NCBI RefSeq assembly: GCF_024807615.1
Contig: NZ_JANUCJ010000003.1
Location: 62,001 to 126,000, forward strand
Direction: 5' to 3'
Source: Tsukamurella ocularis
GTDB lineage: Bacteria > Actinomycetota > Actinomycetes > Mycobacteriales > Mycobacteriaceae
DNA length: 64,000 bases
In this document: positions 5,729 to 49,652 of the stretch, piece after piece
How positions within the stretch are numbered: position 1 is the first letter of the stretch
How the letters are laid out: each line of letters starts with the position of its first letter
Made by a program: the position numbers and the translations under genes
The notes under the pieces: model-generated
Databases searched by the model: none
Seen by the model: the letters and a program-made list of their open reading frames with translations, nothing else
What the model was told of the DNA's origin: nothing

Positions 5729-6667
5729 CTACCGCCGATCGCCGTTGTCGGAGCCCGGCACGGCGGTGCCGAAGGCCTTGATGAAGATGAAGGCGATGAT
5801 CGCCACGCAGAGGAAGATCAGCACCGAGATCGCCGACCCCACGCCCAGGTTGAACGCCTTGAACAGGTTGTTGTAGCCGAGGATCGACACCGATCCCGTC
5901 CCGTTGCTGCCGTTGGTCAGGATGTAGATGTTGTCGAAGATCCGGAACGCGTCCAGGGTGCGGAAGAGCAGCGCCACCAGGATCGCCGGCTTCATCAAAG
6001 GGATCATGATCCGGGTCAGGCGCGTCCACGCGCCGGCACCGTCGAGGGCGGCGGCCTTGAGCAGGTCGTCCGGCACCAGCGCAAGGCCGGAGAGCAGCAG
6101 CAGCGCCATGAACGGCGTCGTCTTCCAAACCTCGGCCAGGATGATGATCGCGACCGACGGCCACTGCTGCGTCAGCGGCGCCGTGCCGTCGGGCAGCAGG
6201 TTCGCGAGGTAGCCGGTCTCCGGCGTCCAGGCGTAATACCAGGAGAACGCGGCCACGACGGTGACGATGCCGTACGGAATGAGCACGACGGTGCGCACGA
6301 GCCCGCGGCCGACGATGGTCCGGTGCATGACCAGGGCGATCGCCATGCCCAGCACGAACTCGATGGCCACCGAGATCACGGTGATCAGCAAGGTCATGCC
6401 CAGCGCTTCCCACCAGTACCCGTCCTGCAGCACGGTGACGTAGTTGCTGAAGCCGATGAACTCGTCCTGGCCGGGTGCCGCGAGCGAGGATTTCTGCAGG
6501 CTCAGCCAGAACGCGTACACGATCGGGTACGCGGTCACGGCGAGCATCACGATCGCCGCGGGGGCGATGAGCACCAGCCCGAGGCGGCGGTCGGCGCGCT
6601 TGCCCTCACTGGCCGGGCCCTGTTCCGCAGGGCCCGGAGTGGCGGTCGCAGTCGTGGCCGTGGTCAT
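5729..6667 (-). CDS. sugA: Trehalose ABC importer permease SugA
   Basis: 312-residue inner-membrane permease of the MalF type. A variable, Ala/Thr/Glu-rich cytoplasmic N-terminus of about 30 residues precedes six predicted membrane helices; the EAA-loop reads KAAALDGAGAWTRLTRIMIP. The start ATG overlaps the lpqY stop codon by 4 nt, so translation is coupled to the binding-protein gene. Partner of SugB and SugC. Confidence 0.92.
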   Translation of the reverse strand: MTTATTATATPGPAEQGPASEGKRADRRLGLVLIAPAAIVMLAVTAYPIVYAFWLSLQKSSLAAPGQDEFIGFSNYVTVLQDGYWWEALGMTLLITVISVAIEFVLGMAIALVMHRTIVGRGLVRTVVLIPYGIVTVVAAFSWYYAWTPETGYLANLLPDGTAPLTQQWPSVAIIILAEVWKTTPFMALLLLSGLALVPDDLLKAAALDGAGAWTRLTRIMIPLMKPAILVALLFRTLDAFRIFDNIYILTNGSNGTGSVSILGYNNLFKAFNLGVGSAISVLIFLCVAIIAFIFIKAFGTAVPGSDNGDRR

Positions 6668-44843: not shown

Positions 44844-45107
44844 CTATTTCGTGACGACACCCATCGGAGCCCCGCCACCGGAGCAGCGCACCCCGTCGAG
44901 CATGCGGTCGAGAGCGCTGCTTAGCGCGGGCCGCTCGCCGACGAGCTCCGCGGCCGCCACCCGCGGCGATCCTGTGCCGACACACTCCGGGTGAGCGCTG
45001 ACCAGGCGCGACTCGATGATCCACAGCGCCACGCCGCTCAGCACCACGACAGTGCAGAGCATCGCCACCAGACCGAATCTGATCTTCGTGAATATCACCT
45101 TCACCAC
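44844..45107 (-). CDS. Small single-pass membrane protein, unknown
   Basis: 87 residues: a basic start (MVKVIFTKIRFG), one membrane helix of about 20 residues ending at WIIESRL, and a short outer tail with two Cys (ECVGTG and VRCSGG) that could form a disulfide. The region upstream (45110-45165) is AT-rich for this genome and could hold the promoter. No family recognised; coding status rests on the helix, plausible start (GAGGGTG before GTG) and the free-standing position facing the dapD terminator. Confidence 0.45.
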   Translation of the reverse strand: MVKVIFTKIRFGLVAMLCTVVVLSGVALWIIESRLVSAHPECVGTGSPRVAAAELVGERPALSSALDRMLDGVRCSGGGAPMGVVTK

Positions 45108-45295
45108 CCTCGTTCAACGAAACCTCGCTACCCTTTGCTATAGCGTATCAGATTGAGGGTTGATGGTTCGCAGACGAAACCACTGGCGACTGTGGGTACG
45201 ACCACCAGCGTTCGCCGGCATCTCAGCCCGCCAAAGGAGCGCCCGAGTTCGTCGACCCGCTGCACCGGGACTTCCTCCGGCCGCTCGGTAGCGCG

Positions 45296-45697
45296 TCAGG
45301 CCCCGTAGACCCGGGCCCCGACGCGGACGACGGGGCGGCCGCGCGCCACCGCCCAGCGCCGCGCGCCGCTGCGCACCGACTCGACGGCCACCCACGCGCG
45401 CTCGGCCTCCGTGCCGTGGGCACGCAGCCAGCCGACGTACGCGCGGGCGTCGTGGGCGGAGCAGTCCACCTTCGGGTGCGCCGCCGCGTAGCCGACGAAG
45501 CCGCCCGGCCAGCCAGGCAGGCTCGTCAACGCCGGGAGGGCCCTGGCCGCGGAGCCCGCGCGCTTCACCGCGAGGACCCGGGCGGTCAGGGCCGCGCCGC
45601 CGACGTCGAACCCGGCCGGCACCCGTCCGGCGAGGAGATCGGTGAGCACCACCGCCTGGCGGTGCCGCAGCCGGTCCCGCACCTCAGGAGGAACCAC
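45296..45697 (-). CDS. Putative MNIO partner protein (SCO6045-like C-terminal domain)
   Basis: 133 residues, helical, Arg/Ala-rich: LRHRQAVVLTDLLAGRVPAGFD then ALTARVLAVKRAGSAARALPAL and a later AHDARAYVGWLRAHG. This pattern, helix, VPAGFD turn, K-R/A helix, resembles the small proteins (SCO6045-like/DUF2063-like) encoded next to DUF692 enzymes, which bind the precursor peptide and deliver it to the enzyme. Two GTG starts are possible: 45697, which overlaps the Ser/Cys-tailed peptide gene by 14 nt, and 45682, 1 nt past its stop; both imply translational coupling. Last gene of the fdxC-dapC-MNIO operon. No enzyme motif seen. Confidence 0.68.
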   Translation of the reverse strand: MVPPEVRDRLRHRQAVVLTDLLAGRVPAGFDVGGAALTARVLAVKRAGSAARALPALTSLPGWPGGFVGYAAAHPKVDCSAHDARAYVGWLRAHGTEAERAWVAVESVRSGARRWAVARGRPVVRVGARVYGA

Positions 45698-45968
45698 AGC
45701 TGCTCGAACTGCTCGACGAGCTGGAGCCGCAGCTACTGGCCCCGCAGCTGCTCGCGCTGCAGTTGGAGCCCGAGTCATGGCCCGAGTGGTGCGAGCCGCC
45801 GCCGGAGTCGCCGAAGAACCAGGCCGATCCGGCGCCGGAGTCGCCCGACGACCCACTGCGCCCGCGGGACCGCCCGCGGCGCCGCCCACCGCTCTGGCCG
45901 CCCGAAGCGGCGGAGACGCACACCGCGATCACCGCGAAGATCACGAACAGAACCACCACAGCTTCCAT
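45684..45968 (-). CDS. Membrane-anchored Ser/Cys/Gly-tailed peptide, candidate MNIO substrate
   Basis: 94 residues. One N-terminal membrane helix or uncleaved signal (EAVVVLFVIFAVIAVCVSAA), an Arg/Ser/Gly linker (26-48), a His cluster HHSGH at 60-64 and a tail rich in Ser, Cys and Gly with Cys70, Cys75, Cys80 and Cys91 in repeating SSCG units, including a run of nine Ser. GGGAGG 6 nt before the ATG is a strong ribosome site. Located between the DUF692 enzyme gene (21 nt upstream) and its partner gene. DUF692 enzymes modify Cys or Asp of such peptides using iron and oxygen; the Cys repeats are the likely targets. It may correspond to a shortened form of the TIGR04222-type membrane proteins with Cys/Gly tails found beside DUF692 in other actinobacteria. 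Confidence 0.72.
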   Translation of the reverse strand: MEAVVVLFVIFAVIAVCVSAASGGQSGGRRRGRSRGRSGSSGDSGAGSAWFFGDSGGGSHHSGHDSGSNCSASSCGASSCGSSSSSSSSSCGSS

Positions 45969-45989
45969 CTCGCACCTCCCGATCGTCGT

Positions 45990-46886
45990 TCAGTCGATCC
46001 CGAGAACCTCTCGTAGGCACAGCATCTCGTGCCGGACGGCGGATTCGATCACGGACTCGTCACGTTCCAGCAACACTCCGGGCAACGTGCTCCCACCTGC
46101 AGAAACACCCCCAAGAGAACGCTGTGAATCCCGCCAGACCGCGAGGAGATCCAGAACTTCCGGGCATATCGGGTCGGCGTGGGTGTCGAGGTAGAGGCCC
46201 TTGTCGAAGCGGCCGCCCGCGATGTGGACGTACGCGACCGCCTCCAGCGGATACCGCCGCAGCTCGCCGGCGGCATCCGCTCCGCGGGCCGTGCACGAGG
46301 CGTAGACATTGGCCAGGTCGAGGACTAGGCGTACCCCCGTCCGGTCGACCAGCTCCCGCAGGTAAGCCGGCTCGTCGTAGCGGTCCTCGGGCCACGCGAA
46401 CAGGGCGGCGATGTTCTCCAGCGCGAGCGGCACGGGCAGCGCGGCCTGCGCGGCGCGCACGTTCTCCACCAGCACGTCGAGCGCCTCGGCCGTGCGCGGG
46501 GCAGGCATCAGGTGGCCGGCCTCGAGGACGTCCTCGTGAGGGCCGGACGCCGTGTCGGCGGGATCGTCGTCCAGCCCGACGGTGCCCGCCCGCACGAAGG
46601 CGATGTGCTCGCTCACCAGCGGCGCGTCCAGCGCCACCGCGAGGTCGGCGAGCCGCCGCAACCGGTCGGGATCGGGGAGGTCCGCACCCGCGATGCCGAG
46701 CGTGACCCCGTGCGGCACCACCGTGACGCCCAAGCCCACCAGTTCCGCCAGCTCGGCGGGCAGCGCGGCCGGATCGGCGTTCTCCGCCACGATCTCGGTG
46801 AACGCGACAGAACCCGCGCGCGCACCGTCGAGCAGCATCCCGGCGAGTTCGGGCCGCCACGCGGCCGAGACGCCGGAGATCCCCAT
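45990..46886 (-). CDS. MNIO (DUF692) multinuclear non-heme iron oxidative enzyme
   Basis: 298-residue TIM-barrel enzyme of the DUF692 family, the family of MbnB (methanobactin), TglH (3-thiaglutamate) and ChrH. Candidate metal ligands and conserved motifs: PHG at 58-60, SEH at 92-94, LEN at 156-158, DLANVY at 190-195, HIAGG at 221-225, DTH at 234-236 and LLERD near 272-276. These follow the family order. Known members bind two or three irons and rework Cys or Asp in a ribosomal peptide, helped by a partner protein. The ATG overlaps the dapC stop (TGATG). Followed by a Ser/Cys-tailed peptide gene and a partner-like gene. Confidence 0.9.
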   Translation of the reverse strand: MGISGVSAAWRPELAGMLLDGARAGSVAFTEIVAENADPAALPAELAELVGLGVTVVPHGVTLGIAGADLPDPDRLRRLADLAVALDAPLVSEHIAFVRAGTVGLDDDPADTASGPHEDVLEAGHLMPAPRTAEALDVLVENVRAAQAALPVPLALENIAALFAWPEDRYDEPAYLRELVDRTGVRLVLDLANVYASCTARGADAAGELRRYPLEAVAYVHIAGGRFDKGLYLDTHADPICPEVLDLLAVWRDSQRSLGGVSAGGSTLPGVLLERDESVIESAVRHEMLCLREVLGID

Positions 46887-47986
46887 CAGGCCAAGCGCTC
46901 GGCGGCGGCGGCGATCCGCTCGTCCGTCGCGGTCATCGCGATCCGCACGTGCTGCGCGCCCTGCGGGCCGTAGAACTCACCCGGCGCGGCGAGGATGCCG
47001 CGCTCGGCCAGCCAGTCGACGGTCTCGCGGCAGGGCTCGCCGCGCGTCGACCACAGGTACAGCCCGGCCTCGGAGTGGTCGACGGTGAAGCCCGCTCCCT
47101 GGACGGCCCGCAGCAGCACCGCACGGCGGGCGGCGTAGCGGGCGCGCTGTTCCGCCTCGTGCTCGTCCACTGAGAGGGCGTAGGTCATCGCGGCCTGCAC
47201 CGGGAAGGGCACGATAGCGCCGGCGTGCTTGCGCACCGCGGCGAGTTCGGCGATGAGCGCGGGATCGCCCGCGAGGAAGCCGGCGCGGTAGGACGCCAGG
47301 TTCGAGGTCTTCGACAGCGAGTGGATCGCGATCAGCCCGGCGGTGTCGCCGTCACAGACGCGCGGGTCGAGGACCGAGACGGGCTCGGCCTCCCAGGCCA
47401 GGCCGAGGTAGCACTCGTCGGACGCCACGATCGCACCGCGCTCGCGCGCCCACTGCACCACCTTGCGCAGGTGGTCCACGCCGAGCACCTTGCCCGTCGG
47501 GTTCGACGGCGAGTTCACGAAGACCAGCGCCGGCCGTTCCGGGCCGAGCTGGGCGGTACCGTCGGCCCGCACCGGCCGGGCCCCGGCCAGCAGCGCGCCC
47601 ACCTCGTAGGTGGGGTACGCGACCTCGGGGATGACGACGACGTCACCGCTTCCGAGCCCGAGTTGCGACGGCAGCTGCGCGATCGCCTCCTTGGTCCCGA
47701 TCACGGGCAGGATCGCGTTCTCCGGCAGCGCGACGGTGCCGTACCGGCGGCTCAGCGCGGCCGCGGCGGCCTCACGCACGGCGACGGTGCCGATCGTGGC
47801 CGGGTAGCCGGGGAACGCGGAGCCCTCGAAGAGGGCGCGGCGGATCGGCTCGGCGACCGGGTCCACGGGTGTGCCGACGGAGAGGTCGACGATGCCGCCG
47901 ACGTGCGCCGCGGCCTTCTCCTTCGCGCCCGCGAGGGTGTCCCACGGGAAGTCCGGCAGTCCGGACGCCACGGGCACGCGCGACAC
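46886..47986 (-). CDS. dapC: Succinyldiaminopimelate aminotransferase
   Basis: 366-residue fold-type I PLP aminotransferase converting N-succinyl-2-amino-6-ketopimelate to N-succinyl-LL-diaminopimelate. VNSPSNPTGKVL, VASDECYLGLAW and the Schiff-base Lys in HSLSKTSNLASYRAGF are visible. Length and position next to fdxC match Rv1178. GTG start 1 nt after the fdxC stop. Its stop codon shares a base with the start of the MNIO gene. Confidence 0.93.
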   Translation of the reverse strand: MSRVPVASGLPDFPWDTLAGAKEKAAAHVGGIVDLSVGTPVDPVAEPIRRALFEGSAFPGYPATIGTVAVREAAAAALSRRYGTVALPENAILPVIGTKEAIAQLPSQLGLGSGDVVVIPEVAYPTYEVGALLAGARPVRADGTAQLGPERPALVFVNSPSNPTGKVLGVDHLRKVVQWARERGAIVASDECYLGLAWEAEPVSVLDPRVCDGDTAGLIAIHSLSKTSNLASYRAGFLAGDPALIAELAAVRKHAGAIVPFPVQAAMTYALSVDEHEAEQRARYAARRAVLLRAVQGAGFTVDHSEAGLYLWSTRGEPCRETVDWLAERGILAAPGEFYGPQGAQHVRIAMTATDERIAAAAERLA

Positions 47987-47987
47987 G

Positions 47988-48320
47988 TCAGTGCTCGGTG
48001 TCGGTGTTCATGGGCGGGAGCGCCTTGATGAAGGGGTGGTCGTAGTCGATCTTCCCCTGCTTCGCGGCACCACCGGGCGAACCGATCTCGTCGAAGAAAT
48101 CGATGTTCGCGCTCACGTATTCGGCCCACTCGTCCGGCACGTCGTCCTCATAGAAGATGGCCTCGACGGGGCACACGGGCTCGCAGGCGCCGCAGTCCAC
48201 GCACTCATCCGGCTGGATGTACAGCATCCGGTTGCCCTCGTAGATACAGTCGACCGGGCACTCCTCAATACATGCCTTGTCGAGCACATCCACACAGGGC
48301 TCTGCGATGGTGTACGTCAC
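47988..48320 (-). CDS. fdxC: 7Fe ferredoxin
   Basis: 110-residue ferredoxin of the FdxA/FdxC class with eight Cys: 9, 17, 21 and 25 in CVDVLDKACIEECPVDC, and 40, 43, 46 and 50 in CVDCGACEPVC, giving one [3Fe-4S] and one [4Fe-4S] cluster; the C-terminal extension is typical. AAGGAGATGACAG precedes the GTG. First gene of the operon that runs through dapC and the MNIO cassette; it might provide electrons to that enzyme, though its link with dapC is older and general. Confidence 0.95.
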   Translation of the reverse strand: MTYTIAEPCVDVLDKACIEECPVDCIYEGNRMLYIQPDECVDCGACEPVCPVEAIFYEDDVPDEWAEYVSANIDFFDEIGSPGGAAKQGKIDYDHPFIKALPPMNTDTEH

Positions 48321-48398
48321 CTGTCATCTCCTTCGCACCGACTGCTTCCACCCGACAGTATTCCGCGCCGTTGGAAGGTGTCACAAAGAAGTGTCGCC

Positions 48399-48404
48399 TA
48401 ACCT
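48399..48404 (+). promoter_or_regulatory. -10 element of a leaderless nupC transcript
   Basis: TAACCT, 6 nt before the GTG at 48411; no ribosome binding site is seen. Confidence 0.45.
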
Positions 48405-48410
48405 GCCGGT

Positions 48411-49652
48411 GTGTGCTTTCATTCACCAGTGCACGTAATCGTCGGTGTGTTCGGACTCGTCGTCTTCCTCCTCCTCGCGTACCTGCCCACGCGGAACGTC
48501 GCCCTGCTCAAGAAGAAGGCGCCGTACATCCTGGGCATGCTCGCGATCCAGTTCGTGCTGGGCCTGATCATGCTCAAGACCCCGGTGGGGCAGAACGTCA
48601 TCGACTGGCTGTCGCGGGGTTTCAAGAACCTGCTCCAGTTCGCCCACGAGGGCACGGCGTTCGTGTTCGGCGGCCTCGTCGACTACAACAAGGCCCCGGA
48701 CGGCCCGGGCCCGTTCTTCATGAACGTGCTGCTGCCGATCATCGTGATCTCGTCCCTGATCGGCATCCTGCAGTTCCTCAAGCTGCTGCCCCTGATCATC
48801 AAGTACCTCGGCCTGGCGCTGTCCACGGTGACCGGCATGCCGAAGCTGGAGTCGTTCAATGCGGTCAGTTCGGCGATCATCGGCCAGTCCGAGAACTTCA
48901 TCGCGATCAAGAAGATCCTGCCGACGCTGCCGCCGAACCGCCTCTACACGCTCTCGGCGTCCGCGATGTCGACCGTGTCGATGTCGATCGTCGGCTCGTA
49001 CATGACGATGATCGAGCCCCGGTACGTGGTCGCGGCCATCGTGCTCAACCTGTTCGGCGCGTTCATCGTGGTCTCGCTGATCAACCCGTACGAGGTCGCT
49101 CCCGAGGACGACGTCTTCGCCGCGCCCGAGCAGAAGAAGCAGTCCTTCTTCGAGATGCTCGGCGAATACATCATGGACGGCGCGAAGGTGGCGCTCACCG
49201 TGGCCGCGATGCTGATCGGCTTCGTCGCACTGCTCGCGCTCGTCAACGGGCTCTTCGCCTGGATCTTCGGTGGCACCACGTTCCAGGACGTCCTCGGGTA
49301 CGTGTTCGCGCCGCTGGCGTGGCTCACCGGCGTGCCGTGGTCCGAGAGCGTGCAGGCGGGCGAGATCATGGCGACCAAACTGGTGAGCAACGAGTTCGTC
49401 GCCATGATGTCGTTCACCGAGATGAACCCGTCCGGCAACGGCCCCGTCGTGATGAGCGAGCGCGCCACCGCGATCGTCCAGACCTTCCTGGTCTCCTTCG
49501 CGAACTTCAGCTCCATCGGCATCATCGCCGGTGCCGCGAAATCTCTCGCCCCCGACCAGGGCGACCAGATCGCCAAGTTCGGCCTCAAGCTGCTCTACGG
49601 CGCCACGCTGGTCTCGTTCATCTCCGCGACGGTCGTGGGGCTCATCTCGTAG
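48411..49652 (+). CDS. NupC/CNT family nucleoside transporter
   Basis: 413-residue concentrative nucleoside transporter, 8-10 membrane helices. Family motifs include MPKLESFNAVSSAIIGQSENFIAIK (the substrate-binding GQSE core), LYTLSASAMSTVSMSIVGSY and LVSNEFVAMMSF. Uptake of nucleosides with H+ or Na+ is expected. GTG 48411 is favoured by the promoter spacing; GTG 48429 is possible. Confidence 0.9.
   Translation: MCFHSPVHVIVGVFGLVVFLLLAYLPTRNVALLKKKAPYILGMLAIQFVLGLIMLKTPVGQNVIDWLSRGFKNLLQFAHEGTAFVFGGLVDYNKAPDGPGPFFMNVLLPIIVISSLIGILQFLKLLPLIIKYLGLALSTVTGMPKLESFNAVSSAIIGQSENFIAIKKILPTLPPNRLYTLSASAMSTVSMSIVGSYMTMIEPRYVVAAIVLNLFGAFIVVSLINPYEVAPEDDVFAAPEQKKQSFFEMLGEYIMDGAKVALTVAAMLIGFVALLALVNGLFAWIFGGTTFQDVLGYVFAPLAWLTGVPWSESVQAGEIMATKLVSNEFVAMMSFTEMNPSGNGPVVMSERATAIVQTFLVSFANFSSIGIIAGAAKSLAPDQGDQIAKFGLKLLYGATLVSFISATVVGLIS

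Follow-up and report, generated by a model that had tools for sequence, protein, structure and literature searches.

A probable MNIO maturation system for a single-pass, cysteine-tailed membrane peptide in Tsukamurella and related actinobacteria

Three adjoining genes of Tsukamurella ocularis probably form a minimal maturation system built around a multinuclear non-haem iron-dependent oxidative enzyme (MNIO). They lie in a 64,000 nucleotide (nt) stretch of a 4.31 Mb genome (assembly GCF_024807615.1, contig NZ_JANUCJ010000003.1, positions 62,001 to 126,000), here called the window. In the reading that we favour, with moderate confidence, the substrate is a single-pass membrane peptide of 94 amino acids (aa), the cysteines in its tail are oxidised, and the product is an anchored metal binder. 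Among named relatives, Tsukamurella sp. M9C is nearest at this locus, with 96% identity in the MNIO. The gene order on the minus strand is fdxC, dapC, MNIO, the 94 aa peptide and a 133 aa partner, tightly packed. An earlier note, made from the sequence alone, had described the last three genes as overlapping or nearly touching, and the positions of the open reading frames (ORFs) agree: the MNIO ORF covers the last base of the dapC ORF (1 nt overlap), 21 nt separate the MNIO and peptide genes, and the peptide and partner ORFs overlap by 14 nt. The features of the cassette are as follows.

45990..46886, minus strand: MNIO (DUF692, PF05114), an oxidative enzyme of 298 aa, assigned from profile match, ligands and tree
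45684..45968, minus strand: single-pass membrane peptide of 94 aa with a Ser/Cys tail, the putative substrate, assigned from ORF, alignment and composition
45906..45962, minus strand: predicted transmembrane helix of the peptide, residues 3–21, from hydropathy only
45858..45884, minus strand: Arg cluster after the peptide helix, residues 29–37, a positive-inside signal for a cytoplasmic tail
45687..45791, minus strand: His/Ser/Cys tail of the peptide, residues 60–94 (Cys 70, 75, 80, 91), from alignment
45296..45697, minus strand: partner protein of 133 aa, with a DUF2063/MbnC-like helical domain and a three-strand sheet, from homology, tree and model

The length of the partner is counted from a GTG start chosen both in the earlier note and here; the longest ORF at that position is 197 aa.

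The MNIO matched PF05114 with an E value of 4.9e-54 (183.8 bits; curated cut-off 25). Equivalents of all nine iron ligands of TglH (H71, H107, E151, D184, N187, H216, D229, H231 and E258) are present, as H59, H94, E157, D190, N193, H221, D234, H236 and E274, and they are invariant across 115 aligned relatives. The DUF692 enzyme named in the earlier note is therefore confirmed, and the loss of iron ligands, which that note had proposed to look for in an alignment, was not seen at any position. The NCBIfam models ranked BufB best, ApyH second and HvfB third, with MbnB far lower, and all of them scored under their cut-offs (133.3 bits against 310 for the BufB equivalog NF050167). The barrel of a relative in which MNIO and partner are fused gave structural matches to MbnB and TglH. 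In six pairwise comparisons of four Tsukamurella loci, the ratio of non-synonymous to synonymous substitution rates (dN/dS) was 0.10–0.19 for the MNIO, 0.15–0.34 for the peptide and 0.31–0.50 for the partner.

The best hydrophobic stretch of the peptide spans residues 3–21, and is followed by Arg 29, 30, 31, 33, 35 and 37, His 60, 61 and 64, and Cys 70, 75, 80 and 91. Hydropathy and residue positions thus bear out the N-terminal membrane helix, His cluster and four tail cysteines reported earlier; a fifth cysteine, Cys17, which had been missed, lies within the helix. When ORFs were filtered for a hydrophobic 19-mer together with at least three Cys and 25 Gly, Ser, His, Asp or Asn among the 45 C-terminal residues, only the 94 aa peptide was returned from the 333 window ORFs of at least 60 aa. 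Across loci L003–L081, the same filter found 62 ORFs, single-pass and TIGR04222-like proteins pooled, within 2 kb of an MNIO gene (374 kb) and none elsewhere (422 kb). As such ORFs are confined to the vicinity of MNIO genes and only one was found in the window, we conclude that the pairing of peptide and MNIO exceeds chance.

The seven closest orthologues retain all of Cys 70, 75, 80 and 91, together with 18 of the 19 serines in the tail. As the serines are equally conserved, the cysteines are weak evidence at this distance, and we set their conservation aside as proof of function. In the wider family, 3–8 Cys follow the helix in 29 aligned peptides and their spacing is not strict, so the conserved positions expected in the earlier note hold among the closest orthologues and not more widely. 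L002, L092–L099 and L101, second copies of the window or of loci available in longer form, were excluded from these 29 peptides and from the trees described below, and many of the peptide rows are orthologues of each other.

Peptides of this family have one helix and are 75–121 aa long. None of the 29, the window's included, matched the TIGR04222 domain at E values up to 0.1, whereas all 38 large neighbours of sister enzymes that served as a positive control (276 aa or more; 38 of 78 large proteins were aligned for this work) matched at E values up to 0.001. Membership of TIGR04222 is thereby ruled out, as the earlier note had supposed in setting the peptide apart from those proteins. A Ser/Gly-rich C-terminal region with spaced Cys is common to both, as a shared character only. 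Neither DUF2282 nor another curated bufferin signature was among the Pfam and NCBIfam matches of the peptide at E values up to 1, in a set that did not include the Buf2 and EGKCG profiles. PF25184 (YxzE-like) matched residues 1–58, the helix and Arg region, with 27.9 bits, and matched six of the 29 peptides at E values up to 0.1; as the score is below the cut-off of 40, a bacteriocin (YxzE) label was rejected.

A homologue of the partner was found in 122 of 125 MNIO loci. In 18 of them it is fused in one frame with the MNIO (L022, L023, L024, L026, L028, L031, L033, L037, L038, L044, L045, L053, L054, L055, L060, L062, L104 and, in part, L051), and these natural fusions resemble the HvfB-HvfC fusion engineered in PMC13419390. 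The earlier note had called the partner helical, which is correct for the main domain of the structural model and not for its end, where a three-strand sheet follows. The top structural match of the model is MbnC; TglI and NGO1945 (3dee) were not among the fold matches listed. The window partner had no Pfam match, to DUF2063 (PF09836) or any other family, at E values up to 1, hhalign returned a weak match to that family, and comparison with PDB sequences gave nothing relevant. The window partner, which was aligned with 47 of 57 references, fits PME-type 2 in being encoded with an MNIO and lacking the DUF2063 signature.

Phylogeny separates the MNIOs by the kind of membrane protein encoded next to them. 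In a quick tree of 115 MNIO rows, 21 of the 22 rows flagged as one-pass and five without a flagged protein ('none') fell on one side of a branch with Shimodaira–Hasegawa-like approximate likelihood ratio test (SH-aLRT) support of 97; on the other were every one of the 70 multi-pass rows, 18 'none' rows and one one-pass row, L082. The flag of L082 is a script error, as the adjoining protein has 285 aa and three helices, and this locus was left out of a more careful tree of 56 of the 117 MNIO rows, among them L128 and L129. There, the clade of the window (100/99) comprises 16 one-pass rows, five 'none' and no multi-pass rows, and the other 35 rows are 32 multi-pass, three 'none' and no one-pass; for 22 of those 35 the locus protein is among the 38 scanned for TIGR04222, and the rest are multi-pass or 'none' by helix count alone. 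A tree of 51 partner domains (out of 96 stand-alone and 18 fused), built from 94 columns only, has the same split, 18 against 33, at 100/99.

Each of the 11 Tsukamurella loci that encode this MNIO has the peptide gene next to it, which answers the earlier note's question whether close relatives share the pair. Single-pass Cys-tail peptides were also found in six Williamsia-type loci, two of six Mycobacteroides-type loci (L015 and L017), Aeromicrobium (L014), G088 (L102) and G482 (L128), and the peptide gene is 3' of the MNIO gene in all single-pass loci except L014, where it is upstream. Cassettes with two peptide genes, whose tails are in most cases Gly-rich in one and Ser-rich in the other, occur in L093 and L094 from Tsukamurella and in the Williamsia-type loci L006, L007, L008, L010, L012 and L013; the other nine Tsukamurella loci show one peptide. 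The record for L012 is named Kitasatospora arboriphila; its locus is nearly identical to that of Williamsia muralis, and it is possibly mislabelled or contaminated. Homologues of FdxC and DapC are encoded upstream in 11 of 11 Tsukamurella and six of six Williamsia-type loci, and were not found in the remaining clade loci examined. TIGR04222 exceeded its cut-off in none of 12 clade genomes searched, none of them from Tsukamurella, and one Williamsia match fell below the cut-off; the window genome itself encodes one TIGR04222 protein, at L001.

Of 16 congeneric genomes, the same 11 encode this MNIO and its partner; any MNIO in the remaining five is of the second kind. DapC hits came from 15 genomes; the exception, G011, consists of about 890 contigs and may have an assembly gap, which leaves four firm absences of the cassette. 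In these four (L133–L136), no Cys-tail ORF was returned by our filter in the 5.5 kb around dapC, the peptide not having been searched for genome-wide. In G001 (L133), a stretch of about 30 bp behind dapC is similar to the beginning of the MNIO gene and is followed by a homologue of an 87 aa membrane protein gene that lies after the cassette in the window. A homologue of this gene is directly 3' of dapC in G013, and other genes are found there in G005 and G012.

The orientation of the tail is predicted from charge. In all 30 small peptides examined there is no Lys or Arg before the helix and there are 2–8 within the 20 residues after it. For nine of these, the start was chosen by script inside a longer ORF whose extension contains Lys or Arg (L005, one peptide each from L006, L007, L012 and L013, L014, L102, L122 and L128); in the other 21, the window's included, the longest ORF begins at the helix or one residue further out. 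The window peptide has no basic n-region before its helix, judged by Lys/Arg count and not by signal-peptide prediction. By the positive-inside rule, this bias indicates an N-out/C-in arrangement, and therefore the tail would be on the cytoplasmic face of the membrane. For TIGR04222 proteins the tail is predicted to be extracytoplasmic in the text of PMC12452194. Our alignment of 38 large proteins agrees in 33, in which the loop preceding the final segment carries more basic residues than the start of the tail, with three ties and two opposite cases; this final segment has little hydrophobic character in proteins of the Streptomyces type. A cruder count of charges around the last helix of 78 TIGR04222-like proteins was uninformative (42 against 35, with one tie).

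If the favoured reading is right, the helix would insert N-out/C-in and keep the tail on the cytoplasmic side of the membrane, the expected location of the enzyme. The partner would bind the barrel of the enzyme, help to load the peptide, and enable an active mixed-valent iron state, as PMC13419390 describes for HvfC and HvfB. Thiolates of the tail cysteines would bind iron and be oxidised by the iron cluster. The most likely product would be 5-thiooxazole, at a loss of about 4 Da per Cys; with all four tail cysteines modified, the loss would reach 16 Da. We prefer this to oxazolone/thioamide because BufB is the best NCBIfam model and MbnB far lower, albeit all below cut-off, and because the MNIO-PME1 systems are described as makers of 5-thiooxazole (−8 Da for a two-repeat substrate; PMC13097082). 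The product would remain anchored as a membrane-bound binder or buffer of soft, Cu(I)-like metal, although metal binding by the modified tail is extrapolated from analogous systems. As a similar tail is carried by multi-pass TIGR04222 proteins in other actinobacteria, the anchor looks interchangeable and the Cys tail looks like the common target. More tentatively, and with rather less than even confidence, we propose that a separate MNIO lineage, so far seen in Tsukamurella, Williamsia, Mycobacteroides, Aeromicrobium, G088 and G482, matures single-pass peptides with an oxidised Cys tail on the inner face into anchored metal binders that face the cytoplasm, the anchor having been swapped relative to TIGR04222, and that one enzyme serves two substrates in all six Williamsia-type loci and in part of the Tsukamurella loci.

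Several observations weigh against oxidation of a multi-Cys tail as the function of the enzyme. In four Mycobacteroides-type loci (L016, L018, L019 and L020; coordinates 6264–6434 in each) about 90 nt of the tail are missing in frame from the peptide gene, whose stop codon keeps its aligned position; L016, L018 and L020 still have one Cys and L019 has none. The records for L016 and L018 are labelled Mycobacterium sp. Across the 15 pairs of the six Mycobacteroides-type loci, dN/dS is 0.056–0.109 for the MNIO and 0.090–0.158 for the partner, and across the six pairs of tail-less loci 0.060–0.098 and 0.097–0.128, respectively. For the shortened peptide the ratio was 0.112–0.290 in five of those pairs and 0.703 in the sixth, a close pair. 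As the tail has been lost while MNIO and partner are under purifying selection, something besides a multi-Cys tail must keep the enzyme in these loci. In addition, the MNIOs of L009 and L129 belong to this clade, and the stretch examined around them contains no such peptide. One explanation, which we consider unlikely though worth keeping in mind, is that the MNIO modifies the anchored peptide chiefly at some non-Cys residue, or else solely at the first cysteine that follows the helix, and that the tail is an unmodified metal-binding extension. In the tail-less peptides the helix persists and the end reads GYSGAS(C/Y)G, and ApyH, the second-best NCBIfam model, is not known as a Cys oxidase. 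MNIOs of other subfamilies are described as acting on non-Cys residues (ortho-Tyr, homocitrulline). Against this, several cysteines follow the helix in every aligned peptide, TIGR04222 proteins beside sister MNIOs share with the peptides, as far as seen, only a membrane anchor and the Gly/Ser/Cys tail, and the best model, BufB, is a Cys-modifying enzyme of bufferin systems (PMC12452194).

The orphan MNIOs of L009 and L129, together with the loss of the tail in Mycobacteroides-type loci, could also mean that the true substrate is encoded elsewhere in the genome and that the small peptide is an accessory for recruitment, storage or docking. We think this improbable, as the peptide accompanies the enzyme in every Tsukamurella locus and was not seen at the four cassette-free sites, and a tail-like DNA pattern matched 11 places in the window genome besides the peptide gene, frames uninspected, against 54 for a backward control, which is chance level. 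A further alternative accepts the same system and has the tail facing outward, or moved out once modified, like the TIGR04222 and bufferin products in the literature. The predicted topology of TIGR04222 tails and our own alignment of them speak for it, and the charge bias of the small peptides, independent of the chosen start in 21 of 30, speaks against it, the cruder count deciding nothing; we give it little weight. An ordinary neighbourhood of a metabolic TIM-barrel protein and two unrelated small genes is scarcely credible. PF01261 (xylose-isomerase-like barrel) does match the MNIO above its cut-off (41.1 against 31.1 bits), but the iron ligands, partner fusions, co-occurrence and structure match led us to set aside an ordinary TIM-barrel enzyme.

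Among known systems, the favoured maturation of an anchored Cys-tailed peptide resembles that of TIGR04222 proteins, with which it shares sister MNIOs, a Gly/Ser-rich tail with spaced Cys on a membrane protein, a homologous short partner and an actinobacterial setting. It differs in the size of the membrane protein (at least 276 aa in the 38 large proteins; the published range is 70–643 residues, PMC12452194), the single helix, the lack of the domain, the opposite predicted side of the tail and, except at L014, the position of the peptide gene after that of the MNIO. PMC12452194 describes TIGR04222 proteins, PME-type 2 partners and, as adjamnio-V, 'very small proteins' encoded after some MNIOs; the present peptides, similarly placed, may belong to adjamnio-V. 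Neither Tsukamurella nor Williamsia is mentioned in its main text. As its precursor search covered genes preceding the MNIO, downstream substrates such as the 94 aa peptide may be under-counted. With the bufferins and oxazolins the cassette has in common the BufB and HvfB models, a Cys-rich substrate and a partner; in those systems the substrate has a Sec signal peptide, the partner is a DUF2063 protein and the genes are ordered precursor-MNIO-partner (PMC12452194), whereas here there is no basic n-region, no DUF2063 match and the order MNIO-peptide-partner. The lipidated MNIO products DybA and NedA (PMC12636315) are likewise held at the membrane, but through lipoprotein processing rather than an uncleaved N-terminal helix. 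The substrates of Cys-modifying MNIOs described in PMC12452194, PMC13097082 and PMC12636315 have Sec or lipoprotein signal peptides, or are TIGR04222 proteins as candidates.

Methanobactin MbnBC and TglHI share the iron ligands, and the structural matches link the partner to MbnC and the barrel of a fused relative to MbnB and TglH; their substrates are not known to have a membrane-helix anchor. No description of single-pass MNIO substrates was found in titles, the beginnings of abstracts and open-licence PMC text. The enzyme and helper have known relatives, and the single-helix Cys-tail substrate appears to be a little-described variant. A one-helix substrate of 94 aa with a 133 aa partner is a small system that could easily be tested in Escherichia coli. 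Such a test would show if recognition by this group of actinobacterial enzymes requires no more than the Cys tail, and if a modified metal-binding tail can stay inside the cell, with the Mycobacteroides-type loci that have the enzyme and lack the tail as a natural control.

The remaining features around the cassette, with gene names for dapC and fdxC taken from the earlier note, are as follows.

46886..47986, minus strand: dapC-like aminotransferase, upstream, in the host operon and outside the cassette
47988..48320, minus strand: fdxC-like ferredoxin, upstream, in the host operon
48357..48384, minus strand: promoter-like site 5' of fdxC, a consensus match (0.2 expected) and the sole one in 45000–48600
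45126..45145, minus strand: terminator-like stem 3' of the partner gene (0.9 expected by chance, and by itself no evidence)
44844–45107, minus strand: gene for the 87 aa membrane protein after the cassette, with homologues after dapC in the cassette-free G001 and G013

The window genome contains a second MNIO, at L001 (G000:C2:228058-228831). It adjoins a TIGR04222 protein of 342 aa with a Cys-rich tail, and the partner at this locus is just a partner-like frame of 69 aa.
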